A stretch of 64,000 bases of DNA. Source: Jatrophihabitans telluris (GTDB lineage Bacteria > Actinomycetota > Actinomycetes > Mycobacteriales > Jatrophihabitantaceae). Positions 6,818-27,687 of the stretch are shown one piece after another. The translations under genes and the position numbers were made by a program. The stretch lies in assembly GCF_023516435.1 (NCBI RefSeq), contig NZ_CP097332.1, positions 3,968,001-4,032,000 of the forward strand, in the 5' to 3' direction. Under the pieces are notes generated by a model, which did no database searches, was not told where the DNA came from, and was given only the letters and a program-made list of their open reading frames with translations. Within the stretch, counting starts at the first letter, position 1. Each line of letters begins with the position of its first letter.

Positions 6818-7357
6818 TCAGGACGCCGGGCGCGTGCTCCAGGGCCGGACGACGCCGAGCAGGGTGTCCTGTCCAGTGGCCAGAACCTCAACTGCCGCCG
6901 CGGAAATCTCCTCCGGCGTGTGCCACCGTCCCTCACTCGTCCAGCCGAGCAGCAGGGACCGCCAAGGCGCGGCCTGGCGTGCGGGAAGCTCGGACAGGCA
7001 GAAGGCGGCCGGGTCGGCCCCTGGGGCGGGTTGGGCGTATTCGCTCACCAGCAGGTCGACGACCGGGCCGTCGGTGAGCAGCCGCAGCACGGCCAGCGTT
7101 TCGTCGTCGGCCACCGGGGCGTAGACCACGGCTGCGGAGAAGGACGCGACGATGGCGGTGAGGGTTCGTAACAAGCCCTGGGTGTCGAGGTAATCGGCGG
7201 CCGCGGGAATCAGCCGCGGACCGAGCACGGCGGCGAGTTCGGCAAGCTCGGGCGCCGACCGGGCCACCCCGACCACCGTGCGTCCGTCCTCGACCAGCCG
7301 CACCACCGCGGGTCGAAGAATGCCGGTCGCGCCGAGGACGAGAACGGGCGCCGGCAT
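6818..7357 (-). CDS. NAD(P)-binding Rossmann-fold protein (short-chain dehydrogenase-like)
   Basis: A 179-residue protein beginning with a beta strand and glycine-rich nucleotide loop, VLVLGATGILRPAV, as in short-chain dehydrogenases. It is shorter than a full SDR enzyme and I see no YxxxK active-site pair, so it may be a degenerate or accessory member. ATG at 7357 lies 4 bp after the stop of the dehydratase gene, making it the last gene of the FAH hydrolase-GH4-dehydratase operon. Its role there, perhaps redox handling of a sugar intermediate, is inference only. Confidence 0.6.
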   Translation of the reverse strand: MPAPVLVLGATGILRPAVVRLVEDGRTVVGVARSAPELAELAAVLGPRLIPAAADYLDTQGLLRTLTAIVASFSAAVVYAPVADDETLAVLRLLTDGPVVDLLVSEYAQPAPGADPAAFCLSELPARQAAPWRSLLLGWTSEGRWHTPEEISAAAVEVLATGQDTLLGVVRPWSTRPAS

Positions 7358-7361
7358 CGGC

Positions 7362-9083
7362 TCAGAAGGCCTGACGGGGAACCGCGTCGCCGCTGCCGCC
7401 GACGAGGAAGTCGAAATCGGCACCGGTGTCGGCGCCGCCGACGTGATCGACGAACAGCCGGAGGTAGCCGCGCTCGGTTCCGGGCACGGGCCGCGGCTGC
7501 CAGGCCGATCGTCGCTTGGCCAGCTCCGCCTCCTCGACCAGCAGCTCCAGGCTCCGGTTGGGTACGTCCAGGCAGATCCGATCACCGTTTCGAACCAGCG
7601 CCAGTGGACCGCCGTCGGCGGCTTCGGGAGCCACGTGCAGGACCACGGTTCCGTAGGACGTCCCCGACATCCGGGCGTCGGAGATCCGCACCATGTCCCG
7701 AATCCCCTTCTCCAGCAGGCGTTTGGGCAAGGCCACGTTGGCGATCTCGGGCATGCCCGGGTAGCCCTTGGGACCGGAGTAGCGGATGACCAGCACGTCG
7801 TCGGGTTCGATGTCGCAGTCGGGATCGTCGGCCTCGCTCAGGTAGTCCTCGACGCGATCCCACACCCGTGCCCGGCCGGTATGGACGAGCAACTCCGGCG
7901 ACGCCGCGGACTGCTTGATCACCGCACCGTTGGGCGCCAGGCTCCCCCGCAGCACCGCGATGCCAGAACCCGCGGGTTTCAAAGGAGATTCGGCGGTCAT
8001 GATGACCTGGTCGTCGAAGCACTCGGCTCCGAGATAGTTCTGACCCAGCGGCTGACCGGTGACGGTCAGCGCCTGGCGGTCGAGCAGATCCCCCATCCGC
8101 TCGACCACGACACCGAGGCCGCCGGCGTAGCAGAAGTCCTCCATCAGGAACTGTCCGGCCGGCATCAGGTTGACCAGGGTCGGAACGTCAGCGGCCAGCG
8201 CGTCGAAGTCGTCCAGGCTCAGTTCGACCCCCACCCGTCCGGCCAGGGCGAGCAGATGCACCACCGCGTTCGTCGACCCGCCGATGGCGGCATTGGCGCG
8301 GACGGCGTTCTCGAACGCGGCCCGAGTGAGGATCGTCGACGGGCGCAGGCCTTCGCCGACCATCTCCACGATCCGCCGCCCGGCCAGGTGCGCCAGCTTC
8401 TTGCGGCGCGAGTCGTTGGCGGGCAGCGCGGCGCTGCCCGGCAACTGCATGCCGAGCACCTCGGTGAGCAGCGCCATCGTCGAGGCCGTACCCATGGTCA
8501 TGCAGTGACCGTTGGACCGGGCCATACAGCCTTCGGCCTCGGCCAGCTCCGCCGCGGACAGCTCGCCCGCGCGGAACTGTTCGGTCAGTCGCCAGATCGA
8601 GGTTCCCGATCCTATGTCGGTGCCGCGGTACTTGCCGTTGAGCATCGGGCCGCCGGTGATCAACAGGGTGGGCAGATCGACGCTGGCCGCGCCCATGAGG
8701 TAGGCGGGTGTGGTCTTGTCGCAACCGGCGAGCAGCACCACCGCGTCCAGCGGGTTGGCCCGAAGGGTCTCCTCGAGGTCCATCGAGATCAGGTTGCGCA
8801 GGATCATGGCGCTCGGCCGGACGAGCGGTTCACCGGCCGAGGTCGTCGGGAACTCGTAGGGGACGCCGCCGGCCTGCCAGATGCCCCGCTTGACATGTTC
8901 GGCCAGTTCGCGGAAGTGCAGGTTGCAGGGCGTGAGCTCGGACCAGCTGTTGGCGATTCCGATCACCGGACGGGTGCCGTCCAGAGCGTCGTCGGGCAGA
9001 CCCTCGGAGCGCAGCCAGGACCGGTGCATGATGCCGGTCTTGCCTTTCGCGGCGAACCAGGCGGCACTGCGCAGGGTGCCCAT
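7362..9083 (-). CDS. IlvD/Edd-family sugar-acid dehydratase
   Basis: A 573-residue dehydratase that removes water from a 2,3-dihydroxy acid to give a 2-keto-3-deoxy acid. Three cysteines that bind the Fe-S cluster in this family are visible in TPCNLHF (about residue 54), GCDKTTP (about 123) and HCMTMGTAS (about 196). The N-terminal IMHRSWLRSEG and the GKYRGTDIGSG stretch are like L-arabonate/D-xylonate-type sugar-acid dehydratases rather than biosynthetic IlvD. It overlaps the GH4 gene by one base (TGATG), so translation is coupled. Together with an upstream uronidase-like GH4 enzyme and a FAH hydrolase it suggests breakdown of a sugar acid. Substrate is not fixed. Confidence 0.88.
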   Translation of the reverse strand: MGTLRSAAWFAAKGKTGIMHRSWLRSEGLPDDALDGTRPVIGIANSWSELTPCNLHFRELAEHVKRGIWQAGGVPYEFPTTSAGEPLVRPSAMILRNLISMDLEETLRANPLDAVVLLAGCDKTTPAYLMGAASVDLPTLLITGGPMLNGKYRGTDIGSGTSIWRLTEQFRAGELSAAELAEAEGCMARSNGHCMTMGTASTMALLTEVLGMQLPGSAALPANDSRRKKLAHLAGRRIVEMVGEGLRPSTILTRAAFENAVRANAAIGGSTNAVVHLLALAGRVGVELSLDDFDALAADVPTLVNLMPAGQFLMEDFCYAGGLGVVVERMGDLLDRQALTVTGQPLGQNYLGAECFDDQVIMTAESPLKPAGSGIAVLRGSLAPNGAVIKQSAASPELLVHTGRARVWDRVEDYLSEADDPDCDIEPDDVLVIRYSGPKGYPGMPEIANVALPKRLLEKGIRDMVRISDARMSGTSYGTVVLHVAPEAADGGPLALVRNGDRICLDVPNRSLELLVEEAELAKRRSAWQPRPVPGTERGYLRLFVDHVGGADTGADFDFLVGGSGDAVPRQAF

Positions 9084-10468
9084 CAGCGGAACCGGGGCAG
9101 GTGCTCGAGCTGCGCCTCGATCAGCGCATCGGTGAGCGCGGCGGCGGCCGACGGATCGGTGACCGCCCCGTCGGCGATCATCGCCTCGACGACCAGGTCA
9201 CGATCACCGTTCATGGCCGCCTCCACCGACAGATAGACCGAGGACAACCGCCGGTTCAGGATGGCGGTCAGTGGCGCGCCCAGGTCGGGCACCGCGATCG
9301 GTCGGATGCCACGCGCCGTCGCCACACCGGGAATCTCCAGCGCGGCGTCGTGGGGCAGGCCGGGGACGCTGCCGTTGTTGAGCACGTTGCAGCTGAACAT
9401 CTCGCGGGAATCGGTCAGCACCGATCGGATGATCGCGATCAGCTGTTCCTGCTCGCCGGTCGAGCGGTCGAAGACGGTTTCGTCCAGGGGCACCGTGCCG
9501 TCGGCCTGGGCGATCATCGACTGGTAGCGATTCTCGCCCCACTCCAGGATCTCCGGCACCGAATACGCGTCCACCCCGAGGGTCTTGCCGTAGTAGGCGC
9601 CGCGCGGCCAGCGTTCGGGAAAGAACTCGGTCACGTGCCGGTCCTCGGCTGCCGGGAACGCGCCGTAGCGCAGGAACAGTTCCCACGAGAACGGGTTGTT
9701 CCACGCCTTGGTGGCGTCGGCGAAGATATTGCCGAGATCGCCGGGACTCGGTGGTTCGGCCAGCTCGGCGAGCACCTTCGCCCGCACGAGCGGCCACGCG
9801 TCGGCGCCCTGCCAGCGAAAGTCGTAGATGAACGTGAGGTGGTTGATGCCGGCGTAGAGGGTCGAGGTCTGTTCGAACGGCTTGCCGATGAACGCCGCCA
9901 GGTGATGCTGCACGTGGTGCATGCCGTGGCACAGACCGACGACACCGTCGGCACCGGCGTACTTCGTCATGGCCATGACGTTGGCGGTCATGGGGTTCGA
10001 GTAGTTGAAGAAGTGTGCCTGGGGGGCGAGGTCGACGACGTCGCGGGCGATGTCGACCAGGACCGGTGTTGTGCGGATCAACCGTGAGATGCCGCCCGGC
10101 ATGATCGAGTCGCCCACGGGCTGGAAGACGCCGTGAGCCATGCACACCTCATGGTCGGTCTGCCAGGCCGGCCGCCCGCCGACGCCGACGCAGGTCACCA
10201 CGAACTCCGCGCCGGGCAGCACCGATCGCCGATCGACGGACCCGCTGACGCTGATCTGCTCCTCGGCCCCACGGGCGGCGATCATCTTCTCGGCCAGGCC
10301 TACCGCCTTCGACAGCGCGACCTCGTTGACGTCGACCAGGCGGATGTCCCAGCTGCCCAGATCGCGGGCGGAGATGAGGTCGGCGAGCAGACCGCGGGTG
10401 AACACAGCACTGCCCGCACCGATCAGGACGATGCTGTGCTGCGGGGCGTGGCCGAGCGCGCGGCTCAT
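9083..10468 (-). CDS. Glycoside hydrolase family 4 enzyme, probable alpha-uronidase
   Basis: A 461-residue GH4 enzyme, which hydrolyses glycosides by an NAD- and metal-dependent redox mechanism. The NAD loop LIGAGSAVFTRG is at the N-terminus, followed by DVNE (adenosine-ribose acidic residue). The metal site is represented by CHGMHH (about residue 170) and GINHLTF (about 199). In GH4 the CHGx form of this motif is found in alpha-glucuronidases and alpha-galacturonidases, whereas glucosidases and phospho-glycosidases carry other forms; so a uronidase is favoured. One-base overlaps (TGATG) join it to the FAH gene upstream and the dehydratase downstream. ATG at 10468 is chosen over an upstream frame extension. 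Confidence 0.85.
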   Translation of the reverse strand: MSRALGHAPQHSIVLIGAGSAVFTRGLLADLISARDLGSWDIRLVDVNEVALSKAVGLAEKMIAARGAEEQISVSGSVDRRSVLPGAEFVVTCVGVGGRPAWQTDHEVCMAHGVFQPVGDSIMPGGISRLIRTTPVLVDIARDVVDLAPQAHFFNYSNPMTANVMAMTKYAGADGVVGLCHGMHHVQHHLAAFIGKPFEQTSTLYAGINHLTFIYDFRWQGADAWPLVRAKVLAELAEPPSPGDLGNIFADATKAWNNPFSWELFLRYGAFPAAEDRHVTEFFPERWPRGAYYGKTLGVDAYSVPEILEWGENRYQSMIAQADGTVPLDETVFDRSTGEQEQLIAIIRSVLTDSREMFSCNVLNNGSVPGLPHDAALEIPGVATARGIRPIAVPDLGAPLTAILNRRLSSVYLSVEAAMNGDRDLVVEAMIADGAVTDPSAAAALTDALIEAQLEHLPRFR

Positions 10469-11319
10469 CAGAAGTACCTCACCCTGTTGCTCAGCAGGCC
10501 GATTCCGGCCACGCCACATTCCACCAGGTCACCGTCACCGAGGAACAGCGGCGGGGTGCGGAATCCACCGCAGCCCGGCGGCGTCCCGGTGAGGATGAGG
10601 TCGCCCGGTTCCAGCGTGGTCGTCTCGGTGAGGTAGTCGAGCAGGAAGTCGATGTCGAAGATCAGGTCAGCGGTGCTGGCGTCCTGCATCAGACGGCCGT
10701 TGACCTCGGTGTAGATGCGCAGCCCGTGCGGGTCGCTGACCTCGTCCGCGGTGACCAGGGTCGGGCCGATGGGGCAGAAGGTGTCCATGCTCTTGGCCCG
10801 CGTCCACTGGCCATCGCGGAATTGCACGTCCCGCGCCGAGACGTCGTTGGCGACGGTGTAGGCCGCGATGTGGGCGCGGGTGCCGCGCTCGGAGGGCCCG
10901 CACCGGGCGCCGATGACGACGGCGAGTTCGGCCTCCCAGTCGACGTCGGTGGTGACGCTCTTGGGAATGCGGATCTCGTCGTGGGGACCGGTGATCGATG
11001 AGCTGTACTTGGCGAAGGTGAGCGGCTCGGCCGGGGCCTCGAGCCCGGTCTCGGCCGTGTGGTCGGCGTAGTTGAGACCGATGGCGATGATCTTGCCCGG
11101 CCGACGCAGCGGCGCCGCGAGCTGGGCCTCGGCCAACGAAACCCGTTGCCCCACTGGGGTAATCGCGTCGGCGTCGGCCCCGGCACGAAGCCAGCCGAGC
11201 CAGGGGTCGGCGGTCTCAGCGTCGCCGAGGGAGACCGGCTGTACCCATTGCTGGGGTCCGTCGCTGAGCAGCACGGCGGGCGTGGCGTGGTCATCGATAC
11301 GCACAACGGCAAGCCGCAT
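10468..11319 (-). CDS. Fumarylacetoacetate hydrolase-family protein
   Basis: A 283-residue cytoplasmic enzyme of the FAH superfamily, which cleaves or hydrates C-C bonds in 2-keto or 2,4-diketo acids. Hallmarks are IAIGLNYADH (about residue 78), the metal ligands in DWEAELAVVIG (about 127), VANDVSARD and KSMDTFCPIGP, and the C-terminal LILTGTPPGCG. The KSxDTFCPxGP form is shared with 2,4-diketo-3-deoxy-L-fuconate hydrolases. First gene of the operon, with promoter and operator just upstream. It probably acts on the keto-deoxy acid made by the co-transcribed dehydratase. Confidence 0.85.
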   Translation of the reverse strand: MRLAVVRIDDHATPAVLLSDGPQQWVQPVSLGDAETADPWLGWLRAGADADAITPVGQRVSLAEAQLAAPLRRPGKIIAIGLNYADHTAETGLEAPAEPLTFAKYSSSITGPHDEIRIPKSVTTDVDWEAELAVVIGARCGPSERGTRAHIAAYTVANDVSARDVQFRDGQWTRAKSMDTFCPIGPTLVTADEVSDPHGLRIYTEVNGRLMQDASTADLIFDIDFLLDYLTETTTLEPGDLILTGTPPGCGGFRTPPLFLGDGDLVECGVAGIGLLSNRVRYF

Positions 11320-12536: not shown

Positions 12537-12917
12537 ATGCCGACCACCGTGCTCCATTGTTCGTTCTGCACCAAAGCCGCCCCGCAGGTGGCCAAACTGA
12601 TCGCCGGACCCGGGGTGTACATCTGCGACCAGTGCGTTGGGCTCTGCACCACGATCCTCGCGGGCGAGCGGGCACAGCACCCGGGCGACGAACCGGACGC
12701 CGGAGCCACACGGGACATCGCCGCCTGGCAGGACATGACCGACACCGAACTGCTGGAGCACCTGCCCAAGATCGCCGCGTCCGCCGCTCGGGTCGAGGAA
12801 AGCCTGAAACTGTGGGTGAATCACGCGCGCGAGCGCGGCCTGACCTGGGCCCGCGTCGGCGAAGCGCTGGGCATGACCCGCCAGTCGGCGTGGGGCAGAT
12901 TCTCCGACGAGCCGTGA
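12537..12917 (+). CDS. ClpX-type C4 zinc-finger protein with HTH-like C-terminus
   Basis: A 126-residue protein. Residues 7-40 hold CSFC and CDQC, the four-cysteine zinc finger of ClpX N-domains, but no AAA+ module follows. The C-terminal 35 residues ([19 protein letters not shown]) read as a helix-turn-helix. This layout occurs in small actinobacterial regulators or adaptors. SD GGAGGG lies three bases before the ATG. A dense set of inverted repeats stands upstream. It converges on the NodB-like gene with a 3-bp gap. Not a ClpX, and the target is unknown. Confidence 0.75.
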
Positions 12918-12920
12918 GCC

Positions 12921-13604
12921 TCAGACGAGCCGCTGGATCATGGTGTTGCTCACCAGATACCGGTATCCCGCTTCCCGAATGGCCTGGTCATGCCGGGCCG
13001 ATCCACCGAACGGACTCCCCCACAAGAAGGCCATGGCCGGTGAGTTCTGTCCGGTGACGGCGTCCATCCGGCGCTTGGGGCGCACGATCTCGCGCAGCAG
13101 GTCCTCGTCGGTGACGATGTCGGCGATGCCGTCGTGGGAGGACGTGTGCGGCGTGACGGTGTGCCGTGCCGACAGCGCCGCGACCTCGTCCCAGGACATC
13201 GCCAGCCGGTCTCGTCCGATCTCCTCTCGGACCAGATCGATGTTGTGTGACCGGGCGAAAGCCTCCTGCTCCGCGGGCGGGCAGTCGACGAACCCGGTGC
13301 ACACGAAGAACCACGCGGACAGACCCAGGGCGTCGCACACAGGACCCGCGACCTCGGCCGAGTTCCGGTAACCCTCGTAGAAGACCGGGATGAAGCCGGG
13401 TTCGGAGGAGACCCAGGCTCCCGTTTCGTAGAAGGTGTCCAGCTCGGCCAGCGAGACGCAGCGGTATCTGGCGGCCAGCGCGCCCAACTCGGCGGCCAGA
13501 GATTCGCGTTGTGAATCGGGGGTGTTGTGGTAATTGACCACCCGGATGAACCGGCCGGCCGCAATGGCATCACGATGCTCGGTGAAGCCCGGCATCGCGC
13601 TCAT
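12921..13604 (-). CDS. NodB-like (polysaccharide deacetylase-fold) protein, copy 2
   Basis: A 227-residue protein paralogous to the one at 13889-14575. Shared landmarks, in order, are VVNYHNTP, VFYEGYRNSA, CTGFVDCPPAEQE, an RLAMSWDE helix, VTPHTSSHDGI and PKRRMDAVTGQ. HTSSH matches NodB metal-binding motif 2, and the first block aligns with motif 1 (normally TFDDGY), but its two aspartates are replaced by Tyr and Glu. It may therefore bind a different metal or do different chemistry. ATG at 13604 overlaps the stop of the small-protein gene (ATGA). It is the last gene of the DeoR-linked operon. Confidence 0.7.
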   Translation of the reverse strand: MSAMPGFTEHRDAIAAGRFIRVVNYHNTPDSQRESLAAELGALAARYRCVSLAELDTFYETGAWVSSEPGFIPVFYEGYRNSAEVAGPVCDALGLSAWFFVCTGFVDCPPAEQEAFARSHNIDLVREEIGRDRLAMSWDEVAALSARHTVTPHTSSHDGIADIVTDEDLLREIVRPKRRMDAVTGQNSPAMAFLWGSPFGGSARHDQAIREAGYRYLVSNTMIQRLV

Positions 13605-13879
13605 TGCCCGTTCACGATCACGCTGGTGGCCTGCAGGCTCGAGATCAGACAGCCCAGATCCCCCTCGCGTTGGGAGGCGAACGCATCGGCGCGGACCGCG
13701 CTCAACAGCGCGGCGATCCGGCCGCCGTCGGCGAGCACGGCCGGGTCCCCGACCGTGGGCGCCGGTGCGCCCACGCTGAACAGCGCCAGCACCATCGGGA
13801 TTCCCTCGCTGCCGAAGTCCCTGTCCTGTGCCGCGCGCAAGGCCGAAAGGCCCGACACGGCAGCGTGTTTCTCGGTCAT
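13601..13879 (-). CDS. Small conserved partner protein, copy 2
   Basis: A 92-residue protein, paralogous to the product of 14568-14855. Both contain EGIPM followed by a hydrophobic strand, a variable middle with ADG, a helix, and a closing GD.G.(V/L)ISxL block. No known family was recognised, and there is no signal peptide or cysteine motif. It always precedes a NodB-like gene here and overlaps it by 4 bp, which argues for a stoichiometric complex. The gap to the preceding NodB-like gene is 9 bp. Confidence 0.65.
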   Translation of the reverse strand: MTEKHAAVSGLSALRAAQDRDFGSEGIPMVLALFSVGAPAPTVGDPAVLADGGRIAALLSAVRADAFASQREGDLGCLISSLQATSVIVNGQ

Positions 13880-13888
13880 CTGCTGCGA

Positions 13889-14575
13889 TCATCCAATCCG
13901 GTGAATCAGGGTGTTGCCGATGAGGTAGCGGTATCCGGCGGCTATCAGCGCCTCGTCGTGGGGTGCCGACACCCCGAAGGATGTCCCGTGGAGCCAGGCG
14001 AAAGCCGGCGCGGACTGACCGGTCACGGCGTCCATCCGCTGCTTGGGCTGGACTACCTCGCGCCAGAAGTCATCGGTGTCGTCGGAGGAAACGTCGTTGA
14101 TGCCGACGTGGGAGGCGGTATGCGGGGTGACCAGGTGCCGTACCGAGAGCTCACCGATCTCATCCCAGGTCATGGCCAGCCGGTCCTGCCCGATCTCCTC
14201 GGGCACCAGCCCGATCCAGTGCGAGCGGGCGTAGAACTCCTGCTCGGCGGGTGGGCAGTCGACGAAGCCCGTGCAGATCGGGAACACCCCGGTCAGGCCG
14301 AGATCATCGAGGATGGGCGCTGCCACGGTCGCGGAGTTCCGGTAGCCCTCGTAGAAGACCGGGACGAATACCGGGCGCGACGTCGGCCAGCGGCCGGTCG
14401 CGAAGAAGCCGTCCAGATCGGCGAGGGTGATCGTGTCGAAGGTCTCGGCCAGGGCTGACAATTCCGCCCGCAGTGCGCCGGCCTGGGAAGGCGGGGTGTT
14501 GTGGTAGTTGACGACCCGCAAGAAATGGCCTTCGGTCAGGGCGTTCAGGTGGCGGCCGAAGCCCAGGTCAGCCAT
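13889..14575 (-). CDS. NodB-like (polysaccharide deacetylase-fold) protein, copy 1
   Basis: A 228-residue protein closely related in sequence to copy 2. It has VVNYHNTPPSQ, VPVFYEGYRNSATVAAPIL (the NodB motif 1 region with Tyr-Glu in place of Asp-Asp), CTGFVDCPPAEQ, VTPHTASHVGI (motif 2) and PKQRMDAVTGQ. No signal peptide, so a cytoplasmic substrate is likely, unlike secreted chitin or peptidoglycan deacetylases. Its start lies 8 bp inside the small-protein gene. It lies in the same operon as an ABC sugar importer and a DeoR regulator, so it may act on an imported sugar derivative. Confidence 0.7.
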   Translation of the reverse strand: MADLGFGRHLNALTEGHFLRVVNYHNTPPSQAGALRAELSALAETFDTITLADLDGFFATGRWPTSRPVFVPVFYEGYRNSATVAAPILDDLGLTGVFPICTGFVDCPPAEQEFYARSHWIGLVPEEIGQDRLAMTWDEIGELSVRHLVTPHTASHVGINDVSSDDTDDFWREVVQPKQRMDAVTGQSAPAFAWLHGTSFGVSAPHDEALIAAGYRYLIGNTLIHRIG

Positions 14576-14855
14576 GCTCCGGTCCCACCGACTCAGCGAG
14601 CGGGGTCAGCTCGTGCGCGGCCACGACCAGGCAGCTGATCACGCCCCCGTTGTCGCCGTCGCGCATCGTCGGTCCCATGGCTTGCTTGGCCTGGGCGACC
14701 CGCGCGGCAAAGGCCTGACCATCGGCACGCACGGCCGCATGCTGAGCGGCCGGGAAGGCAACACCGGTGCGCTCGTCGACCAGGCCGACGATCATCGGAA
14801 TACCTTCGCGATTCTTGGCCCTGGTCATCGCTTGGCGAAGCCGCGACAACGACAT
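14568..14855 (-). CDS. Small conserved partner protein, copy 1
   Basis: A 95-residue protein opening MSLSRLRQAMTRAK, then REGIPMIVGLVDE, a helical middle, and DGDNGGVISCLVVAA. It aligns with the 92-residue product of 13601-13879 over most of its length. It overlaps the following NodB-like gene by 8 bp. The family was not recognised. It lies 50 bp after the DeoR gene and begins the first of two tandem small-protein/NodB-like modules. Confidence 0.65.
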   Translation of the reverse strand: MSLSRLRQAMTRAKNREGIPMIVGLVDERTGVAFPAAQHAAVRADGQAFAARVAQAKQAMGPTMRDGDNGGVISCLVVAAHELTPLAESVGPEHG

Positions 14856-14905: not shown

Positions 14906-15664
14906 TCAGACCAGACGGACGTCGACCCCGCCGGCGCGCAGTTCGTGCACGGCGCTCGACGGTGCCCCCGAATCGGTGATCACCACGTCGATCTGCTCGA
15001 CGCTGGCGAGGCGGACGGGGCCGCGCTGGGTGAACTTGGTGCTGTCGGCCAGCACCACCAGCGACCCGACGCCCTCCAACAGCTTGCGGTCCGTGCTGGC
15101 CTCGTGCACCGATGCCCCGGTGAGACCGACCGAGGCATCCAGTCCGTAGGTGCCGGTGAACGCCGTGTCCACCCGGAATTCCTCCATCGCGTGCTCGGCC
15201 AGCGGGCCGAGCAGCGACATCTCCGCGTGCCGCAGGATCCCGCCCAGCACGACCACGGTGATGTTGGCCTGCCGGGACAGCTGTACCGCCACGTTGAGCC
15301 CGTTGGTCAGCACCGTCAGGCCGTCGCGCCCGTGCAGGAACGGCAGCATGGCCTCGGTCGTCGTCCCGCCCGTGATCAGGATCGTCGAGTTGTCCTTGAC
15401 CAGACTGGTCGCCGCTTCACCGATGCGCCGCTTCTGCGCCGAGTGCTCGCTCTGGCGAGCCATGTGGGCGACCTCGAGGTCGTTCTCGATCAGGCTCGCG
15501 CCGCCGTGCACCCGGGTGAGCAGCCCTTGGGAATCCATTTCCTTCAGATCGCGGCGGATGGTGGACGCGCTGACGCCGATGGCCTCGGCCAGCTCGTTCA
15601 CCTGACCGATGCCGTGCGAACGCAGATGCCTCAGCACCTCACGCTTGCGCTCATGACTCAGCAT
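14906..15664 (-). CDS. DeoR-family transcriptional regulator
   Basis: A 252-residue sugar-responsive repressor. The N-terminal winged helix shows LAEAIGVSASTIRRDLKEM and the diagnostic LTRVHGGA. The C-terminal domain (from about residue 75) is the phosphosugar-binding fold with ITGGTTTEAMLP and VVLGGILR. DeoR proteins usually sense a phosphorylated pathway intermediate, which the PfkB kinase at 20168 could supply. The start lies 2 bp after the dehydrogenase stop, inside the ABC operon. Candidate operators are the TGCTC repeats at 20110 and 11393. Confidence 0.9.
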   Translation of the reverse strand: MLSHERKREVLRHLRSHGIGQVNELAEAIGVSASTIRRDLKEMDSQGLLTRVHGGASLIENDLEVAHMARQSEHSAQKRRIGEAATSLVKDNSTILITGGTTTEAMLPFLHGRDGLTVLTNGLNVAVQLSRQANITVVVLGGILRHAEMSLLGPLAEHAMEEFRVDTAFTGTYGLDASVGLTGASVHEASTDRKLLEGVGSLVVLADSTKFTQRGPVRLASVEQIDVVITDSGAPSSAVHELRAGGVDVRLV

Positions 15665-15666
15665 CC

Positions 15667-16725
15667 TCAGTATCCCTGCACTCGATCGACCAGGTTCAGC
15701 AACGGGCGCCCGGCGTCGAAGCGACGCAGGTTCTCGCACACGATGTCTAGCACCTGAGCAGAGTAGTCGGGCGCAAGTCCGCTCACATGCGGAGTCACGA
15801 ACACGTTCGGCTCGTCCCACCAGGAGTTGTCGGCGGCCAACGGCTCATCGTCGAAGACGTCCAGCACGGCGGCGCGGATCCGCCCGCTGCGCAACCCCGC
15901 ACGCAGCGCTGACTCGTCGACGATCCCGCCGCGGGCCACGTTGATGAGCACCGCCTGGTCCTTGAGGACGTCGAGCACCTCGGCCGAGACGAGATCGCGG
16001 GTGGCTGCGGTCAAGGGCACGACCACGACCAGATAGTCCGAGCGGCGGGCGACCTCGCTCAGCTGCTCCGGCGCGAACAACTCCACGGCGGCAGGACTCG
16101 TCTCGAGCGGGGCGGCGCCGTAGAACTCATCGGCACCGGCGACGCGCCGCCCCGCGGTCCGGCTGACCCCGAGGACGTGCATGCCGAAGGCCTGCGCCAG
16201 CCGGCCGATCTCGCGACCGATCCGGCCGTAACCGACGACGCCGACGGTCGCGCCGCGCACTGGGGCCGGAAGCATCCGCTGCCAACGGTCCTCGGGTGTG
16301 GGCCAGTCGTGCCCGGACCGCGCCTGCAGCAGCGCGGGCAGCCGGTGCGCGGTGCCCAGGATCGACCAGAGCACGTACTCGGCCAGCGGTACCGGTGAGA
16401 CTCCGCCGATCGTCGTGAGCGAGATCTGCTGACCGGCCGGGTGGGCCCAGATCGGCAGGGCCTGCAGGTGATCGACGCCGGAGGTGTCCAGTTGCACCCA
16501 GCGCAGCCGGGGCGCCTGTCGGGGGTGGCAGAACACCGTGGACGTGTGCAGCACGTCAACCTGGGCCCAGACCTCGTCCGGGATCTCGCTGTCGTGATCG
16601 CAGGTCCACTGCCGGACCTCGACGTCCTGGCAACAGCTCGCGATCCGTTTCAGGAAATCCTCGTCGAAGGCAAGCGTGGACAGGTAGTTGATCCGCGCCC
16701 GGCCGGTGAACGCGGCACGGCTCAT
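15667..16725 (-). CDS. D-isomer-specific 2-hydroxyacid dehydrogenase
   Basis: A 352-residue NAD(P)-dependent oxidoreductase interconverting a 2-keto acid and a D-2-hydroxy acid. The dinucleotide loop VGVVGYGRIGREIG (about residue 155), catalytic arginine in NVARGG, glutamate in VFDDEPL and histidine in VTPHVSG are all present. ATG at 16725 overlaps the stop of the ABC permease gene by 4 bp (ATGA). In a cluster with sugar-acid enzymes it may reduce a uronate-derived keto acid; phosphoglycerate-type activity cannot be ruled out. Confidence 0.85.
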   Translation of the reverse strand: MSRAAFTGRARINYLSTLAFDEDFLKRIASCCQDVEVRQWTCDHDSEIPDEVWAQVDVLHTSTVFCHPRQAPRLRWVQLDTSGVDHLQALPIWAHPAGQQISLTTIGGVSPVPLAEYVLWSILGTAHRLPALLQARSGHDWPTPEDRWQRMLPAPVRGATVGVVGYGRIGREIGRLAQAFGMHVLGVSRTAGRRVAGADEFYGAAPLETSPAAVELFAPEQLSEVARRSDYLVVVVPLTAATRDLVSAEVLDVLKDQAVLINVARGGIVDESALRAGLRSGRIRAAVLDVFDDEPLAADNSWWDEPNVFVTPHVSGLAPDYSAQVLDIVCENLRRFDAGRPLLNLVDRVQGY

Positions 16726-17603
16726 TTGATACCCGAGCGGGCGAGGCCTTGGACGAAGTACTTCTGGAAGGCGACGAACAGGACCACCATCGGCAGGGCC
16801 ATCAACAGGCTCATGGCCATGATCGCTCCGTAGTTGGTGGTGTACTGGCCCTTGATGTCGGTGACCAGGCCGATCGGCACGGTGAACTTCTGGTTGTCGG
16901 AGAAGAACACGATCAGAGGCCAGGTGAAGTCGTTCCACTCGTACATGAAAGTCATCAGGGTGAGTACCGCGACCAGTGGCCGGCACAGCGGCAGGACGAT
17001 CGAGCGGAAGGTGCGAAAGATACCGGCGCCGTCGCAGCGGGCCGCTTCGAGCAGTTCGTCGGGGATCGCGATGAAGAACTGCCGGGCCAGGAAGATACCG
17101 AACACCGATGCGCTGCTGGGCAGGATGACCGCCCAGATGCTGCCGAACATGTTCAGCTTCACGACGAGCTTGAACTGGGCCACCATGATCGCCTGGATGG
17201 GGATCATCATGGTCGACAGCAACAACAGGAAGATCGGGTTCTTGCCGCGGAAGTTCAGCTTGGCGAAGGCGAAACCGGCGAGCAGGTTCACCAGCACGGT
17301 GATCACCGTGACGAGCACCGCGATGACGAGGGAGTTGCGGAACCAGCGGGTCACCGGGAAGTTGCGGATCGGGTCACGGAAGTTGTCCAGCGTGAAATGC
17401 GCCGGCCACAGATGCAGGCCGCTGCGGTAGAGATCGGCCTTCGTGGACACGGCCGTCAGCAGCATCCAGTACAGCGGGAACAGCATGACCAGGGCGATCA
17501 CCAGGGCCAGCGCGAACCGCAGCCAGTAGAAGCGACCGCGAGCCCGCTTGCGCATCACTCGATCGCTGCGGGGGCTGGTGGAGGCCAGCATCGTCGTTGC
17601 CAT
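16722..17603 (-). CDS. Carbohydrate ABC transporter permease (MalG type)
   Basis: A 293-residue membrane permease with six predicted helices. The first is near residues 30-50 (ALVIALVMLFPLYWML), and the cytoplasmic EAA loop that docks to the ATPase is seen as EAARCDGAGIFRTFRSIVLPL. It belongs to the MalG/second-permease group of CUT1 importers. It follows the partner permease by 9 bp and overlaps the dehydrogenase gene by 4 bp. No ATPase gene lies in this operon, so a shared MsiK-type ATPase elsewhere is likely, as is common in actinobacteria. Confidence 0.9.
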   Translation of the reverse strand: MATTMLASTSPRSDRVMRKRARGRFYWLRFALALVIALVMLFPLYWMLLTAVSTKADLYRSGLHLWPAHFTLDNFRDPIRNFPVTRWFRNSLVIAVLVTVITVLVNLLAGFAFAKLNFRGKNPIFLLLLSTMMIPIQAIMVAQFKLVVKLNMFGSIWAVILPSSASVFGIFLARQFFIAIPDELLEAARCDGAGIFRTFRSIVLPLCRPLVAVLTLMTFMYEWNDFTWPLIVFFSDNQKFTVPIGLVTDIKGQYTTNYGAIMAMSLLMALPMVVLFVAFQKYFVQGLARSGIK

Positions 17604-17612
17604 CGTGTCGTC

Positions 17613-18581
17613 CTAACTGGCCAGGTCGCGGTTACGGGACAGCCGCCAGTTCAGGGCGGTGATCACCAGCGTTATCAGATAGATCACCACGCCGATCGCC
17701 GCCGCGTACCCGAGTTCGCCCGATCCGTGCTCATCGAAACCGACCTTGTAGGCGTAGGTGACCAGGGTGGTGGTGCTGTAGTTCGGACCGCCGTTGGTCA
17801 TGGCGTAGACGGTGTCGAAGACCTGGAACGAGTAGATCAGGTTCATGATCAGCAGGAAGAACGTCGACGGCCCGAGCAGTGGGAGCGTGATGGCGCGGAA
17901 CCGCTGCCACGCCGAGGCACCGTCGACCATGGCGGCGTCGTGGTACTCCGGGTCGACACCCTGCAGGCCGGCCAGGTAGATGATCATGTCGAACCCGACC
18001 CGGATCCACAGCGTGACCAGGACGAGCGAGACCATCGCCCACTTGCCGTTGGACTGCCAGTCCGGACCGTTGATGCCCAGGGCGTGCAGGAAGTTGTTGA
18101 CGAAGCCGGAGTACTGATCGAACATCCAGGCGCCGATCAGGCCGGACGAGACGCCGGAGATGACCAGGGGCAGGAAGATGATCGATCGGATCAGCTTGCG
18201 TCCGGGCAGCACGCCGTTGAGCAGGATCGCCATGCCCAAGCCCACCGCCATGCCCACCGGGACGGTGAGCAACGTGAAGAGCGCGGTGTTCCACAGCGCT
18301 TCCCAGAAGACCGAGTCGCGGATGATGTCGACGTAGTTGTTGATCCCGAGGAACTGGGAGGGCCCGAGGGAGCCGATCTTCTGCATGGACAGCCAGAAGG
18401 CCCAGACCAGCGGCAGCAGCAGGAAGACGGCGACCAGCACCAGGTTCGGCAGCAGAAACGCGCCTGCCGTCGGGCCGTGACCTCGGCTGGTCACGGCCCG
18501 TCGGCGCCGGGGCCGGAGCCCGGCACTGCCTTGCAGCGCTTCGGCCGGTAGTTCGGTGACCAGCGAAGGCGATGAACTCAT
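17613..18581 (-). CDS. Carbohydrate ABC transporter permease (MalF type)
   Basis: A 322-residue permease of the CUT1 sugar importer class, with a basic N-terminal tail and six helices starting about residue 38 (FLLPNLVLVAVFLLLPLVWAF). The EAA loop reads DAAMVDGASAWQRFRAITLPLL. It lies between the solute-binding protein gene (10 bp) and the MalG-type permease (9 bp) and pairs with the latter to make the membrane channel. Confidence 0.9.
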   Translation of the reverse strand: MSSSPSLVTELPAEALQGSAGLRPRRRRAVTSRGHGPTAGAFLLPNLVLVAVFLLLPLVWAFWLSMQKIGSLGPSQFLGINNYVDIIRDSVFWEALWNTALFTLLTVPVGMAVGLGMAILLNGVLPGRKLIRSIIFLPLVISGVSSGLIGAWMFDQYSGFVNNFLHALGINGPDWQSNGKWAMVSLVLVTLWIRVGFDMIIYLAGLQGVDPEYHDAAMVDGASAWQRFRAITLPLLGPSTFFLLIMNLIYSFQVFDTVYAMTNGGPNYSTTTLVTYAYKVGFDEHGSGELGYAAAIGVVIYLITLVITALNWRLSRNRDLAS

Positions 18582-18591
18582 GAGGTCGAAC

Positions 18592-19950
18592 CTAGCTGCC
18601 GATGGAGGTGTTTACGCCGTCAGCGATGGCCTGCAGCGTCTTGGCGGTGGCCTGCCCGTTGAAGGCGAGCTCGAGCTGGTCCTGCAGCAGGGTGTTGATC
18701 TTGCTGAAGGCGGGCACCGACGTCTCGGTGGTGATGGTCTGCGACAGCGTGGTCGCCTGCTGGGCAAACACTTTCACCGCGTCCGGGGCGGTGGCGTAGC
18801 TCAGCGAGGACGAGGCCAGGGACTTCAGCGTCGGCAGCTCGATGGCCTGCTCGCAGAAGTACTTCATCGAATCTTCGGACACGATGAACTTCAGGAAAGC
18901 CGCAGCCAGATCGGGGTTCTTGGTCGCCTTGTTCGCCACGATCGCGTTGCCGCCGAGGTCGGTTGCGGCGGCGGTGTCCTTCGGCATGAACGTGACGCCC
19001 CAGTTGCCCTTGTAGCCGCTCTTGGGGTCGGCGATCTCCGGCACCAGGAAGTCGCCGATGAAGGTCATGGGCACGGTCTTGCCGAGGAAGAACTCGTCGG
19101 AGTACTTCGCGCCCTTGATGGTGTTGGACGCCGGCACCCACTTGTTGGTGAAGAAGCTCTTGGTGAAGTCCAGTGCTTTCGTGCCCGCCGCGCTGGGCAG
19201 GGCGGACTTCTTCAGGTCTGGGGTCAGCAGCGAACCGCCCGCCTGGTAGAGGAAGCTCAGCCATCGGTAGGCCCCGGCCTTGGTCCAGTCGTAGGCGAAG
19301 GGGAACTTGCTGGCCGGCAGGGCAGAACGGAGCTTCGTCGCGACCTGGGAGAACTCGTCCCAGCTCCAGGCGTTGGCGAGGCTGTCGGGGACCGAGGTGA
19401 TGCCGGCGCTGGCGAAGGCGTCCTTGTCGTAGACGATCGCGGTGCAGTCGGTCTGATGCGGCACGCCGAACGGGATGTTCTGGTACTTGATGGCGTCCCA
19501 CAGGGCGGGGAGAAAGGCATCGATGTCGCTGGAGCTGAAGTACTGGGTCAGGTCCATCAACGCACCCGCGGAGGAGTACTTGCCCATCGTGGTGTAGTCG
19601 ACCCGGAAGATGTCGGGTGCGTTGCCGGCCTGGATGCCCCGGTCGATACCGGCGAAGAAACCGTCGTAGGGGACGACCTTGAGGGTGATCTTGGCGCCCG
19701 GGTTGGCGGCCTCGAACTTCTGCTTGACGTAGTTGAAGCCGGCCGTCTCGCCGGTGCTGCCACCCCAGAAGGCGAAGGTGAGTTGCCCGGTCTGCGGGCC
19801 GAGGCTCGACTTGGCACCGGTCGAGCCACTCGCCTTGACGGTGGCGTCGGTGGTACCCGAGTTGGAGTGGACGGAGGTACAGGCACTCAGCCCGAGCAGC
19901 GTGGCAGCTCCCGCAGAGCCGGCCAGAAAACCGCGCCGTGACAGATCCAT
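18592..19950 (-). CDS. ABC transporter sugar-binding lipoprotein (family 1)
   Basis: A 452-residue extracellular solute-binding protein. The N-terminus SRRGFLAGSAGAATLLGLSAC joins a twin-arginine motif to a lipobox, so it is probably Tat-exported and lipid-anchored at the cysteine near residue 24. The body has the family-1 opening TFAFWGGSTGET and typical VKQKFEAANPG helix. ATG at 19950 is used because it starts directly before the twin arginines. It is the first gene of the importer-dehydrogenase-DeoR-NodB operon, with a good sigma70-type promoter about 100 bp upstream. Confidence 0.9.
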   Translation of the reverse strand: MDLSRRGFLAGSAGAATLLGLSACTSVHSNSGTTDATVKASGSTGAKSSLGPQTGQLTFAFWGGSTGETAGFNYVKQKFEAANPGAKITLKVVPYDGFFAGIDRGIQAGNAPDIFRVDYTTMGKYSSAGALMDLTQYFSSSDIDAFLPALWDAIKYQNIPFGVPHQTDCTAIVYDKDAFASAGITSVPDSLANAWSWDEFSQVATKLRSALPASKFPFAYDWTKAGAYRWLSFLYQAGGSLLTPDLKKSALPSAAGTKALDFTKSFFTNKWVPASNTIKGAKYSDEFFLGKTVPMTFIGDFLVPEIADPKSGYKGNWGVTFMPKDTAAATDLGGNAIVANKATKNPDLAAAFLKFIVSEDSMKYFCEQAIELPTLKSLASSSLSYATAPDAVKVFAQQATTLSQTITTETSVPAFSKINTLLQDQLELAFNGQATAKTLQAIADGVNTSIGS

Positions 19951-20167: not shown

Positions 20168-21196
20168 GTGACATCGATCGACTCCGACGTGCCGGCAGAG
20201 GTGCCAGTAGAGGTGCCGGTAGAGGTGCTGGTGCTGGCCGAGCTCAACCCGGACCTGTTGCTCAGCGCGCCGTCGGCGACGGTGTCCTTCGGCCAGGTCG
20301 AGACCGAACTCAGCGACAGCCGTCTGACTCTGGGCAGTTCGGGAGCGATCACCGCCGCCGCGCTGGCCGCTCTCGGTGTGCCGGTCGGGCTCTGTGCCAC
20401 GGTCGGTGACGACGAGTTCGGCCGCGGGGCCGTCACGATGTTGCGCGCAGCCGGCGTGGACGCGTCCGCGGTGATCGTGCGACCTGAACTGCGCACCGGT
20501 ATCACGGTCGTCGTCAACGCCCCGGGCGGCGATCGGGCCCTGCTCACCTACCCCGGCGCCATGGCCGCGCTGGCCGCCGGCGACGTACCCCCCGCGGCCC
20601 TTGCCCGCGCTCGACACGTCCACGTGAGTTCGATCTTCCTCCAGCACGCGCTACGGCCGGGGTTGGCCGCGCTGTTGAAGGACCTGCGCGATCGCGGCGT
20701 GAGCACGTCCCTGGACACCGGCTGGGACCCCGCCCAACGCTGGGACGACATCGCCGAGCTGCTGGCGCACCTGTCGCTGTTGCTGCCCAACGCCGCCGAG
20801 CTCGAGCAGCTGTGCGCGCGGCTGGACATCGAGGCCACGCCCGGCTCGCCCGACTGGTTCGTCGAGCCGGCGCGGGCGCTGGCCCGACGTGGGCCCACGG
20901 TCGCCGTCAAGCTCGGCGGCAACGGTGGGTACGTCACCGACGGCACTGCCGAGGGCAGCTGGCAGATCTGCACCGAGCCGCTCGAACCGGTGGACACCAC
21001 CGGCGCCGGGGACAACTTCAACGCCGGCTACCTCAGTGGCCTGCTCGCCGGTGCCGCCCCTGCCGACTGCCTGGCCGCGGCGATCGCGGCCGGCCGGGTG
21101 TCGGTCACCGGTCACGGCGGCACCGGCCGCCTGCTGACCCCCGCCGAGCGGGACGCCGAAGTGGCGCGCCTGTCCCCGACTGCCCACCGCCCGTAA
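20168..21196 (+). CDS. PfkB-family carbohydrate kinase
   Basis: A 342-residue ribokinase-like sugar kinase. The first core strand is EVLVLAELNPDLLL, the GSSGAITAAALAALG segment forms the substrate-side glycines, and the C-terminal anion-hole/catalytic motif is DTTGAGDNFNAGYL with the base Asp. The N-terminus carries a short VPVE repeat made by a 12-bp tandem duplication. Start GTG has no SD but lies at the predicted transcription start. The gene is divergent from the sugar importer and followed by an SIS-domain gene, so it likely phosphorylates the imported sugar or its keto-deoxy acid. Confidence 0.85.
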   Translation: MTSIDSDVPAEVPVEVPVEVLVLAELNPDLLLSAPSATVSFGQVETELSDSRLTLGSSGAITAAALAALGVPVGLCATVGDDEFGRGAVTMLRAAGVDASAVIVRPELRTGITVVVNAPGGDRALLTYPGAMAALAAGDVPPAALARARHVHVSSIFLQHALRPGLAALLKDLRDRGVSTSLDTGWDPAQRWDDIAELLAHLSLLLPNAAELEQLCARLDIEATPGSPDWFVEPARALARRGPTVAVKLGGNGGYVTDGTAEGSWQICTEPLEPVDTTGAGDNFNAGYLSGLLAGAAPADCLAAAIAAGRVSVTGHGGTGRLLTPAERDAEVARLSPTAHRP

Positions 21197-21242: not shown

Positions 21243-22133
21243 ATGACCGAGAGCGCCACCTATGCGGAGAACACGCTGCGTGAGATCTTCAGCCAGCCCG
21301 AGACGTGGGCCCGGGCACTCGCGCAGGTCGCCGCGGGCGTACCGCTGCCCGCCGACGGGGAGAAGATCCTGTTCCTGGGCTGCGGGACCTCGTACTACAT
21401 CGGCGAGGCCTACGCCCGCCTGCGCAACGCCCTCGGCAAGGGCCAGACCCGGGCTTTCGTCCCCACCGAGCTTTCCTATGTGGAACCGGACGAAACCGTG
21501 ATCGTGCTGTCCCGCTCGGGCACCACCAGCGACGTGATCAGCCTGGCCAAGGACCTGCGCTCCCAGGGCCACCGCGTGGTCGGCATCGTCGGGACTCCGC
21601 AGACGCCGATGATCGACGTGTGCGACGACGTGATCATGATGGCCTACGCCGACGAAGTGTCCGTCGTCCAGACCCGCTTCGCCTCGACGGCGTTCACGCT
21701 GCTGCGCGCCAGCCTGCAGCGGGAGTTGGGCTACCTGCCCGAGCAGGCGGCCCAGGCCCTGACCCGCGACCTGCCCGACACTCCCGAACACGTCGTCTTT
21801 CTCGGCACCGGATTCTCTCTCGGCCTGGCCCACGAGGCCGCGCTGAAATGCCTGGAATCATCGGGCATGTGGGCCGAGGCCTACGCGGTGATGGAGTACC
21901 AGCACGGTCCCATCTCCGCCGCCGGACCCGGGACCGTCGTGTGGCCGCTGGTCCCGGTCCCGGACTCGGTCTCCGACGGGGTCCTGGCCACCGGCGCGCG
22001 GCTGGTGATCCCGACTCTGGACCCGCAGGCGGAACTCGTCTCCATCCACCGCCTGGCGGTGGCGATGGCGGCCGCGGCGGGCCGCAATCCCGACGTGCCC
22101 CCGTACCTGTCGCGCTCGGTCCAGCTGGACTGA
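21243..22133 (+). CDS. SIS-domain sugar isomerase/deaminase-like protein
   Basis: A 296-residue cytoplasmic protein with two phosphosugar-binding SIS domains. The first shows LFLGCGTSYYIGEAYA (about residue 42) and VLSRSGTTSDVI (about 90). The second shows VFLGTGFSLGLAHEAALKCLE and the catalytic-side AYAVMEYQHGP, as in AgaS and the isomerase half of GlmS. These families act on amino-sugar phosphates. SD GGGAG precedes the ATG. It lies 46 bp after the kinase gene, suggesting the pathway sugar passes through an amino-sugar or ketose phosphate. Confidence 0.85.
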   Translation: MTESATYAENTLREIFSQPETWARALAQVAAGVPLPADGEKILFLGCGTSYYIGEAYARLRNALGKGQTRAFVPTELSYVEPDETVIVLSRSGTTSDVISLAKDLRSQGHRVVGIVGTPQTPMIDVCDDVIMMAYADEVSVVQTRFASTAFTLLRASLQRELGYLPEQAAQALTRDLPDTPEHVVFLGTGFSLGLAHEAALKCLESSGMWAEAYAVMEYQHGPISAAGPGTVVWPLVPVPDSVSDGVLATGARLVIPTLDPQAELVSIHRLAVAMAAAAGRNPDVPPYLSRSVQLD

Positions 22134-22139
22134 CCACCG

Positions 22140-22445
22140 ATGCCGGTCATCATCGTGCACGGACCGCCCACGGAATCGGCACAAGCCCTGCTGCACAAGG
22201 TGAATCAGGCCGTCGCCGGCGCGCTGGGACTGCGGCCCGTCGATGTCCACTCCATGTTCAGCCCGGCCGGACCGGCCGCCACCGGCGAGCAGCCCGACTC
22301 GGCGTGGCCGACCGCGTTGTTGCACGGGCGCGCGCGGCCGCCGGAGTTGATGGCGGCCGCGGTCAACGGCGTTTCGGCCGTGCTGGCCGAGGAATTCGAC
22401 GTAGCGCCGGGACGCGTCTGGGTCCAGTGGGTGCTCACGGGTTAG
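22140..22445 (+). CDS. Small tautomerase-like protein
   Basis: A 101-residue protein beginning MPVIIVHGPP. A proline straight after the initiator Met followed by a beta strand is the signature of the 4-oxalocrotonate tautomerase superfamily, where Pro-1 is the catalytic base; the helix TESAQALLHKVNQAVAGALG fits the same fold. It lies 6 bp after the SIS gene and could act on a keto-enol intermediate. The likeness is short, so confidence is moderate. Its 3' end overlaps the convergent kinase gene by 11 bp. Confidence 0.6.
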   Translation: MPVIIVHGPPTESAQALLHKVNQAVAGALGLRPVDVHSMFSPAGPAATGEQPDSAWPTALLHGRARPPELMAAAVNGVSAVLAEEFDVAPGRVWVQWVLTG

Positions 22446-26944: not shown

Positions 26945-27687
26945 TGGGAATTCGGCACGTCGAGGCGGTGATGGGGACGATGTTCTCCATCGAGATCCGT
27001 GACGCTCGCTTGACCGGCTCGGCCGCCGAACGCGTGCTCGAACCCCTGCTGGCGCGGTTGCACGCCATCGATGCCGACTACTCCCCGTTCCGCCCGGACA
27101 GCCTGGTCAGCAGGGTCAACCGGGGCGAGCTGAGCGAGAGGGACCTGCCCGCCGAGGCGAAGACGGTCCTGAGGGAGTGCGAGCTGTGGCGGGAGCTGTC
27201 CGGGGGCGCGTTCGACGTCCGGGCCACTGGGCGTCTGGATCCCTGCGGGTACGTCAAGGGCTGGGCGATCGCCGAGGCGTCCCGGCTGCTGGCCGAAGCC
27301 GGTTCGACCTGGCACTGCGTCAACGGCGGCGGCGACGTCCAGGCGGTCGCCCCGGCCGACGTCCGACCTTGGCGCGTTGCCATCGCGGACCCGCGCGATC
27401 GGGGCCGGACGGTGGCAACTCTCACCGGGCACACGCTGGCGGTCGCCACCTCCGGAAGCGCCGAACGAGGTGAGCACATCGCCGACCCCCGCACGGGAAG
27501 GCCGGCCACGGGCGACCTGCTGAGCCTGAGCGTCTACGGCCGATCGATCATCGACTGTGACGTGCTCGCGACGGCCGGCTACGCGATGGGCGCCGACGTG
27601 TGCGGATGGTTCACCCAGCGACCGCATCTGACCGCGTACGCGGTCCGTGCTTCGGGCACGAGTTGGCTCGGCCGACCGGCTGCCTAG
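26944..27687 (+). CDS. apbE: FAD:protein FMN transferase
   Basis: A 247-residue ApbE-family flavinyltransferase, which moves FMN from FAD to a Thr in partner proteins. Visible are VMGTMFSIEI, DADYSPFRPDSLVSRVN, the LDPCGYVKGWA stretch, VNGGGDVQA and the C-terminal IIDCDVLATAGYAMG metal-site region. No lipoprotein signal is seen, so it may act in the cytoplasm or be carried by its partner. Starts on the stop codon of the FMN_bind gene. Its TAG stop shares the CTAG palindrome with the convergent aldolase gene. Confidence 0.85.
   Translation: MGIRHVEAVMGTMFSIEIRDARLTGSAAERVLEPLLARLHAIDADYSPFRPDSLVSRVNRGELSERDLPAEAKTVLRECELWRELSGGAFDVRATGRLDPCGYVKGWAIAEASRLLAEAGSTWHCVNGGGDVQAVAPADVRPWRVAIADPRDRGRTVATLTGHTLAVATSGSAERGEHIADPRTGRPATGDLLSLSVYGRSIIDCDVLATAGYAMGADVCGWFTQRPHLTAYAVRASGTSWLGRPAA

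Follow-up and report, generated by a model that had tools for sequence, protein, structure and literature searches.

The closest described relatives of the proteins considered here are the poly-beta-1,6-N-acetylglucosamine (GlcNAc) N-deacetylases PgaB, IcaB and BpsB, which are CE4 enzymes with a circularly permuted NodB fold. A further deacetylase of this fold, PplD of Streptococcus pyogenes, acts on the cell wall. The active-site residues of PgaB are described as including His55, Asp114 and Asp115 (PMC7112194), and motif 5 of the PgaB-type branch is placed at the N-terminus in a published account (PMC10967932). The same fold is described for PuuE allantoinase, with poorly kept motifs and a small substrate (PMC10967932, PMC3084791). 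The window analysed here is a stretch of 64,000 nucleotides (nt), positions 3,968,001-4,032,000 of the 4.19 Mb single-contig genome of Jatrophihabitans telluris. It contains two gene pairs, each encoding a small protein and a NodB-like protein. The NodB-like proteins share with PgaB, IcaB and BpsB the barrel, the HxxxH pair, the N-terminal His and a P-x3-Q stretch also present in the PgaB-type structure 3vus. They differ in that the base Asp is replaced by Tyr or Phe and the metal Asp mostly by Glu, and in having a small partner, a place in a sugar-import operon and no signal peptide visible by eye.

Fold and active site of the NodB-like proteins

Four open reading frames (ORFs) occupy positions 12921-14855 on the minus strand and form two small-NodB pairs arranged head to tail, small_A with NodB_A and small_B with NodB_B. 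The ORFs overlap by 8 nt in the first pair and by 4 nt in the second, and 9 nt separate NodB_A from small_B. A preliminary description made from the sequence alone had reported two such pairs in one operon with overlaps of 4-8 bp, and this arrangement is confirmed. The NodB-like proteins are 61-62% identical. The small proteins are 37% identical, and the tblastn E value of about 2e-6 indicates that their likeness is not due to chance. Both pairs lie at the end of a tight minus-strand run that encodes a sugar-binding protein, two permeases, a D-2-hydroxyacid dehydrogenase and a DeoR regulator.

NodB_B scores 26.8 bits against PF01522 (Polysacc_deac_1), over the cut-off of 23.1, and NodB_A scores 16.7 bits, under it; an NCBIfam scan gave no model for either protein. 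A profile (A1) was built from 26 aligned NodB-like rows, both window proteins included. As a canonical comparison set, ten loci were scanned for ORFs with both canonical motifs; L018, L059, L060, L063 and L085 gave one and the other five none. Alignment of A1 to these five proteins placed VFYEGYRN over TFDDGY and matched HTxSH to the metal motif; the N-terminal YH, present in four of the five, aligned with the NYHNTP of the family. VFYEGY and PHTxSH are present in both window copies, as had been read by eye.

Among the 30 rows compared, the base position (the first D of TFDDG) is Tyr in 23 and Phe in 7, and Asp in none. The metal-Asp position is Glu in 22 rows, Asp in 4 and Asn in 4, and both metal His residues are kept in all 30. 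The metal His pair and the N-terminal H25 are invariant in the 26 aligned rows, as are N23 and D207. The altered motif is thus conserved in 30 of 30 members, beyond the two paralogues in which it was noticed. The preliminary description held that both Asp residues are changed; this stands for the base Asp, which is lost throughout. Judged from the alignment, the change at the metal site is mild, mostly Asp to Glu, and the loss of the base Asp is the radical one. By comparison with the canonical proteins, H25 is likely the general acid and E76, H152 and H156 the likely metal site, with Y75 probably in the place of the base Asp. Retention of both metal His residues and of the N-terminal His across Actinomycetota and alphaproteobacteria would be unusual for a dead enzyme.

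Comparison of A1 with the PDB set matched eight chains. The top four are PgaB-type poly-GlcNAc N-deacetylases (4u10, E 3.6e-9; 3vus, E 2.6e-8) and the remaining four are polysaccharide deacetylases of other kinds. The predicted structure of NodB_A (predicted local distance difference test, pLDDT, 93.6) was compared with solved structures using Foldseek. The 50 matches listed are led by PplD (E 1.2e-11, yet only 15% identity), PgaB (3.0e-11) and IcaB (3.8e-10), and include BpsB. By sequence and predicted fold, the NodB-like family is therefore a branch off the PgaB/IcaB N-deacetylases of the permuted type. Membership of the PuuE group was considered and is not supported: the 50 fold matches listed include no PuuE entry, the PuuE relative 3qbu ranks 31, and the family keeps the metal His residues whereas PuuE is described as metal-independent (PMC10967932). 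No NCBIfam model matches either pair and Pfam offers only PF01522, weakly. The family is a new variation on the known NodB fold, with an unnamed partner protein.

Association of the small protein with NodB

The small protein gave no Pfam family over cut-off: two families appeared, each in one of 19 members and at E 0.019 or worse. Neither small_A nor small_B matched an NCBIfam model; the search for a known family covered Pfam, NCBIfam and solved structures. The best PDB match of the small protein (E 0.0075) was a capsid protein and was taken as chance. A relationship to the N-terminus of YcaO, considered for the likeness of GIPM to GVPV, was rejected at an hhalign probability of 0.3%.

A second profile (A2), made from 19 free-standing small proteins only, was run over the six frames of the window and of the fetched loci. 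It found 38 small copies, all 38 followed closely, in the same orientation, by a NodB-like match. Separate genes directly before the NodB-like gene account for 29 of them, and the other nine are N-terminal fusions within the same ORF (L032, L033, L034, L036, L041, L098, L099, L101 and L102; five of the nine score below 30 bits). No small copy stood alone. Conversely, 16 of 54 NodB-like ORFs had no small match. Three alphaproteobacterial loci with NodB genes in tandem contribute one each, the second of the two. Nine belong to a single genus, where they represent five genes, four of which occur in two loci, and carry a long N-terminal extension; a similar motif is seen in the extension of three aligned ORFs, below significance. 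Three are divergent (L017 and L047, which hold the same gene, and L093), and the last is a remote match of 61 bits (L103). Among 150 related genomes, where the first look scored at most 33 candidates per genome, the small protein was found in eight, all of them NodB-positive. NodB-like proteins of at least 160 bits occurred in 13, and the five without the small protein belong to the genus with the extended N-terminus. Therefore the small protein looks like an obligate partner of the NodB-like protein.

The model of the fused L041 protein is confident as a whole (pLDDT 88.4; predicted template modelling score 0.89). Its small part folds as helix-strand-helix-helix, and the small chain may contact the NodB active site. 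The idea of a two-subunit enzyme, raised in the preliminary description, gains real support. Among the papers listed by searches of the open PMC library, which leaves most subscription journals outside, none dealt with the small-NodB pair, and YcaO together with NodB gave none.

Three alphaproteobacterial loci (L037, L039 and L040, at about 8970-10670) have a single small gene followed by two different NodB-like genes, with LFEG and FYNG motifs. Their products may form a three-chain complex.

History and distribution of the pairs

In the tree, the sister of NodB_A is a copy from an Arthrobacter plasmid (73% identity, support 100/99) and not NodB_B, the placement of which is unresolved. The pairs had been called tandem-duplicated. 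The term holds for their layout; a simple, recent local duplication is not supported by the tree. From the tree, the two pairs would therefore have different histories or stem from an old duplication. The nonsynonymous divergence between NodB_A and NodB_B (dN 0.31) is lower than the synonymous divergence (dS 0.93), so both copies look maintained.

No NodB match was found in the eight genomes of the same genus listed, several of them incomplete. In an actinomycete sample the family exceeded 200 bits in 5 of 396 genomes; 33 genomes matched at E 1e-8, and 28 with a best match of 70 bits or less were left out of the count. In the class of the search-centre genome G545 it was found in one of 289 genomes, that one being G545 itself (G630, at 60 bits, was left out). 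This sporadic distribution suggests horizontal spread.

The sugar-uptake cassette

The genes around the pairs encode an ABC (ATP-binding cassette) sugar importer and a set of sugar-metabolizing enzymes (Table 1). The preliminary description had guessed at an intracellular sugar, and the importer, dehydrogenase and DeoR operon bear out a setting in sugar metabolism. It had missed the importer cassette as such, along with the small-NodB fusions, the relationship to PgaB and the alternating presence of YcaO described below.

Table 1. Genes of the two pairs and of the surrounding cassette (window coordinates).
Feature	Position	Strand	Remarks
small_A	14568-14855	-	95 aa; REGIPM motif; partner protein of no known family; no Pfam over cut-off, no NCBIfam match
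NodB_A	13889-14575	-	228 aa; PgaB-like NodB fold by prediction; VFYEGY, no base Asp; 8-nt overlap with small_A
small_B	13601-13879	-	92 aa; paralogue of small_A
NodB_B	12921-13604	-	227 aa; paralogue of NodB_A; 4-nt overlap with small_B
DeoR/GlpR-type regulator	14906..15664	-	PF00455, PF08220
D-2-hydroxyacid dehydrogenase	15667..16725	-	PF02826
Sugar ABC permease 2	16722..17603	-	relative in 34/35 loci; L104 counterpart annotated carbohydrate permease
Sugar ABC permease 1	17613..18494	-	start could be 18581
Sugar-binding protein of ABC importer	18592..19950	-	matches solved sugar-binding proteins
PfkB-type sugar kinase	20213..21196	+	PF00294
SIS-domain phosphosugar isomerase/deaminase	21243..22133	+	PF01380
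Small cassette protein	22140..22445	+	no Pfam match; recurs in cassette; presumably tautomerase-like
FAH-family hydrolase	10468..11319	-	closest model 2,4-didehydro-3-deoxy-L-rhamnonate hydrolase, below cut-off
GH4 NAD-dependent glycosidase-like	9083..10468	-	PF02056, PF11975
IlvD/Edd-family dehydratase	7362..9083	-	PRK06131 subfamily, above cut-off
Conserved cassette protein c11	6818..7357	-	Rossmann-like by eye; no Pfam match
Class II ketose-bisphosphate aldolase	27684..28535	-	PF01116; TIGR00167 above cut-off
Second PfkB-type kinase	28537..29565	-	PF00294; L104 counterpart annotated '1-phosphofructokinase family hexose kinase'

The two Pfam domains of the GH4 protein score 133.9 and 119.2 bits, both over cut-off, and its alignment shows a CHG signature, which is linked to uronic-acid glycosidases. 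Using a profile of the SIS protein (A5), the best solved relative is named glucosamine-6-phosphate deaminase (E 2.4e-46), with GlmS entries also near. The PfkB protein at 20213-21196 has no solved relative at E 1e-20. The matches of the sugar-binding protein are too general for a substrate to be read from them, and this approach was abandoned.

The cassette is contiguous on plasmid NZ_CP012478.1 of Arthrobacter sp. ERGS1:01 (L104, 8344-29644). The order there is aldolase, 1-phosphofructokinase-like kinase, small hypothetical protein, SIS protein, carbohydrate kinase, binding protein and two permeases, followed by 2-hydroxyacid dehydrogenase, DeoR, small protein, NodB and a hypothetical protein on the opposite strand. 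The FAH hydrolase, GH4 (annotated as hypothetical and recognized by BLAST), IlvD/Edd dehydratase and a c11 relative complete it, and an MFS transporter and a Tn3-family transposase come next. Every enzyme, importer and regulator class of this cassette has a counterpart in the window.

We compared 35 wide loci by BLAST at set thresholds, some of them cut by contig ends and six from Herbidospora. Permeases and NodB were each present in 34, the binding protein in 32, the small protein in 28, the dehydrogenase in 24, DeoR in 22 and SIS in 20. PfkB followed in 18, GH4 and aldolase in 15 each, YcaO in 12, the second PfkB in 11, IlvD in 7 and FAH in 3. L047 is the sole locus without permease and NodB by BLAST; it has a divergent NodB (163 bits, by profile) and a YcaO.

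Several neighbouring genes were also recorded. A 126-aa protein at 12537-12917 (+), convergent with NodB_B, begins with CxxC...CxxC, which resembles a ClpX-type zinc finger. The product of 11451-12419 (+), a protein without assigned function, recurs near the cassette in L020, L032, L034, L036 and possibly L104. Elsewhere in the genome, beyond the window, a further member of the cassette SIS protein's subfamily (292.6 bits) lies at G000:C1:2088519-2089379.

Alternation with YcaO-type proteins

The YcaO family is known mainly for peptide modification. Each of the 35 loci has either the dehydrogenase (24) or a YcaO-type protein (12), and only L048 has both. This alternation is the most surprising part of the analysis. 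The partner protein of L022, a locus of Nakamurella endophytica, scores 161.8 bits against PF02624 (cut-off 25.7), a domain it shares with the YcaO proteins of peptide cyclodehydration and thioamidation; here it accompanies a sugar importer and a NodB-like protein. The genome of the window has no YcaO, by the Pfam model or by the subfamily profile. Genome-wide, the YcaO subfamily (profile A4) reaches at least 480 bits in 14 of 37 NodB-positive genomes. The SIS subfamily was sought at over 180 bits in 22 of the 37 searched whole, and was present in seven of eight without YcaO and in two of 14 with it, which indicates that the modules tend to replace each other. In the other 15 genomes, all without this YcaO, SIS was seen by BLAST at each locus.

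The YcaO subfamily is not exclusive to the NodB setting. At E 1e-60 it was found in six of 296 genomes of the window's class: in four it lies in a run with inositol-phosphate-synthase-like and Gfo/Idh-like proteins, in one (L096) it stands apart from both, and in one (L093) it is beside a divergent NodB-like protein. The YcaO tree does not recover the NodB-linked proteins as a single clade; its deep forks are weakly supported. These two observations weaken the case for a joint function, without removing it.

The runs of L092, L094, L095 and L097 comprise YcaO, inositol-1-phosphate-synthase-like, methyltransferase-like, Gfo/Idh, metallo-beta-lactamase-like and xylose-isomerase-like proteins, and look like a biosynthetic cluster. 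Domains were scanned in L092 and PIG-L in L094; L095 and L097 are alike by eye.

Proposed function

We tentatively propose, by analogy with the nearest enzymes, that the pair forms a hydrolase of two subunits whose substrate is an imported amino-sugar glycoside and which is probably an N-deacylase. The nearest enzymes deacetylate GlcNAc polymers and the cassette has SIS, kinases and aldolase, so that an N-deacylase would complete the route. Each pair would be an apparently cytoplasmic two-subunit enzyme. The NodB-like chain would provide a barrel of the PgaB/IcaB type, devoid of the base Asp, in which Glu, His and His bind the metal and an N-terminal His acts as general acid. The small chain would pack on this barrel and complete or shield the site. 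In a glycoside taken up by the ABC importer, the amino-sugar part would carry the N-acyl group, or related C-N group, that the enzyme hydrolyses. The freed hexosamine would be phosphorylated by PfkB, deaminated by SIS to a ketose phosphate, phosphorylated again by the second PfkB and split by the class II aldolase. GH4 and the IlvD/FAH branch would take the other part of the substrate, which the presence of GH4, IlvD and FAH suggests is an acidic sugar.

The cassette resembles the SIS-type glucosamine-6-phosphate deaminase pathway, since its SIS protein is nearest to such an entry and the kinases and aldolase are present. No classical NagB was recognized in the genome of the window. The scanned genes of its cassette and the annotated cassette on the plasmid (L104) showed no other recognizable amino-sugar deacetylase. 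However, several observations weigh against an N-deacylase. The CE4 general base is absent in all 30 rows and the metal Asp is Asn in four, so ordinary deacetylation cannot be assumed; the lost base is the main argument against it. Two NagA-type deacetylases over cut-off lie outside the window and outside the cassette (G000:C1:1109220-1110218 and 1581598-1582785). The idea that the genome had no other amino-sugar deacetylase was thus wrong: it is not without an enzyme for deacetylating phosphorylated GlcNAc, and the weakening of the pathway-gap argument lowered our confidence slightly and raised that in three of the alternatives by very little. YcaO-type genomes mostly have no SIS, and the amino-sugar route does not explain them. 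Finally, GH4 matches three NCBIfam models, each below its cut-off, SIS scores 57.5 (GlmD) and 53.5 (NagB-II) bits against cut-offs of 580 and 430, and both kinases are typed to family level only.

Given the lost base, other reactions have to be weighed. Ring opening in place of acyl removal, with a cyclic amide, ureide or amidine of the imported compound as target, is unlikely, though it survives best among the alternatives; PuuE allantoinase carries out a reaction of this kind. NodB-fold enzymes outside CE4 are described, PuuE included (PMC10967932, PMC3084791); HP0310 (3qbu), a close PuuE relative, appears at rank 31 of the fold search, and a partner-type YcaO is described as acting on amide bonds in one case (PMC5589413). 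Nevertheless, the 3qbu match is weak (E 0.014), no PuuE entry is among the matches listed, and a permuted PgaB branch with both metal His residues intact is at odds with a metal-independent enzyme. We also consider improbable a metal-dependent isomerization, epimerization or lyase reaction on the imported sugar, which would need no hydrolytic base. The aromatic residue at every base position beside an intact His pair is consistent with this, and the invariant N23, H25 and D207 suggest a different yet conserved active site, but the best fold and profile matches are hydrolases.

A non-enzymatic role, in which a dead deacetylase would serve as a sensor that binds sugar or as an accessory of the importer, is quite improbable. 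The missing base and the near-constant permeases speak for it, as does the failure to find an ABC ATPase of this kind in L104 or in the cassette of the window. However, the ATPase is present in the four alphaproteobacterial loci, in L093 and L047 a NodB-like protein occurs with YcaO and no importer of this kind is recognized, and the metal and N-terminal His residues are conserved in Actinomycetota as well as in alphaproteobacteria. That the pair has no function and is drifting, as a relative of ordinary polysaccharide deacetylases, fits its sporadic occurrence in actinomycetes and its absence from the same-genus genomes listed, but is highly improbable given dN below dS, the same base loss and partner in two phyla, and the gene fusions.

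Returning to the two-subunit hydrolase, it is possible, if rather doubtful, that it represents a new type of two-component enzyme in which the partner subunit supplies or replaces the base Asp, within sugar-import systems where an ATP-dependent YcaO enzyme can substitute for a dehydrogenase/deaminase module. An unnamed small-protein family, a catalytically rewired deacetylase branch and, elsewhere, YcaO are tied to one conserved sugar importer, which makes it possible to test the chemistry of an entire catabolic cassette that is uncharacterised and apparently mobile. Should YcaO act on the imported sugar, which is possible, it would be a small-molecule sugar enzyme outside peptide chemistry, and the YcaO family would be widened.

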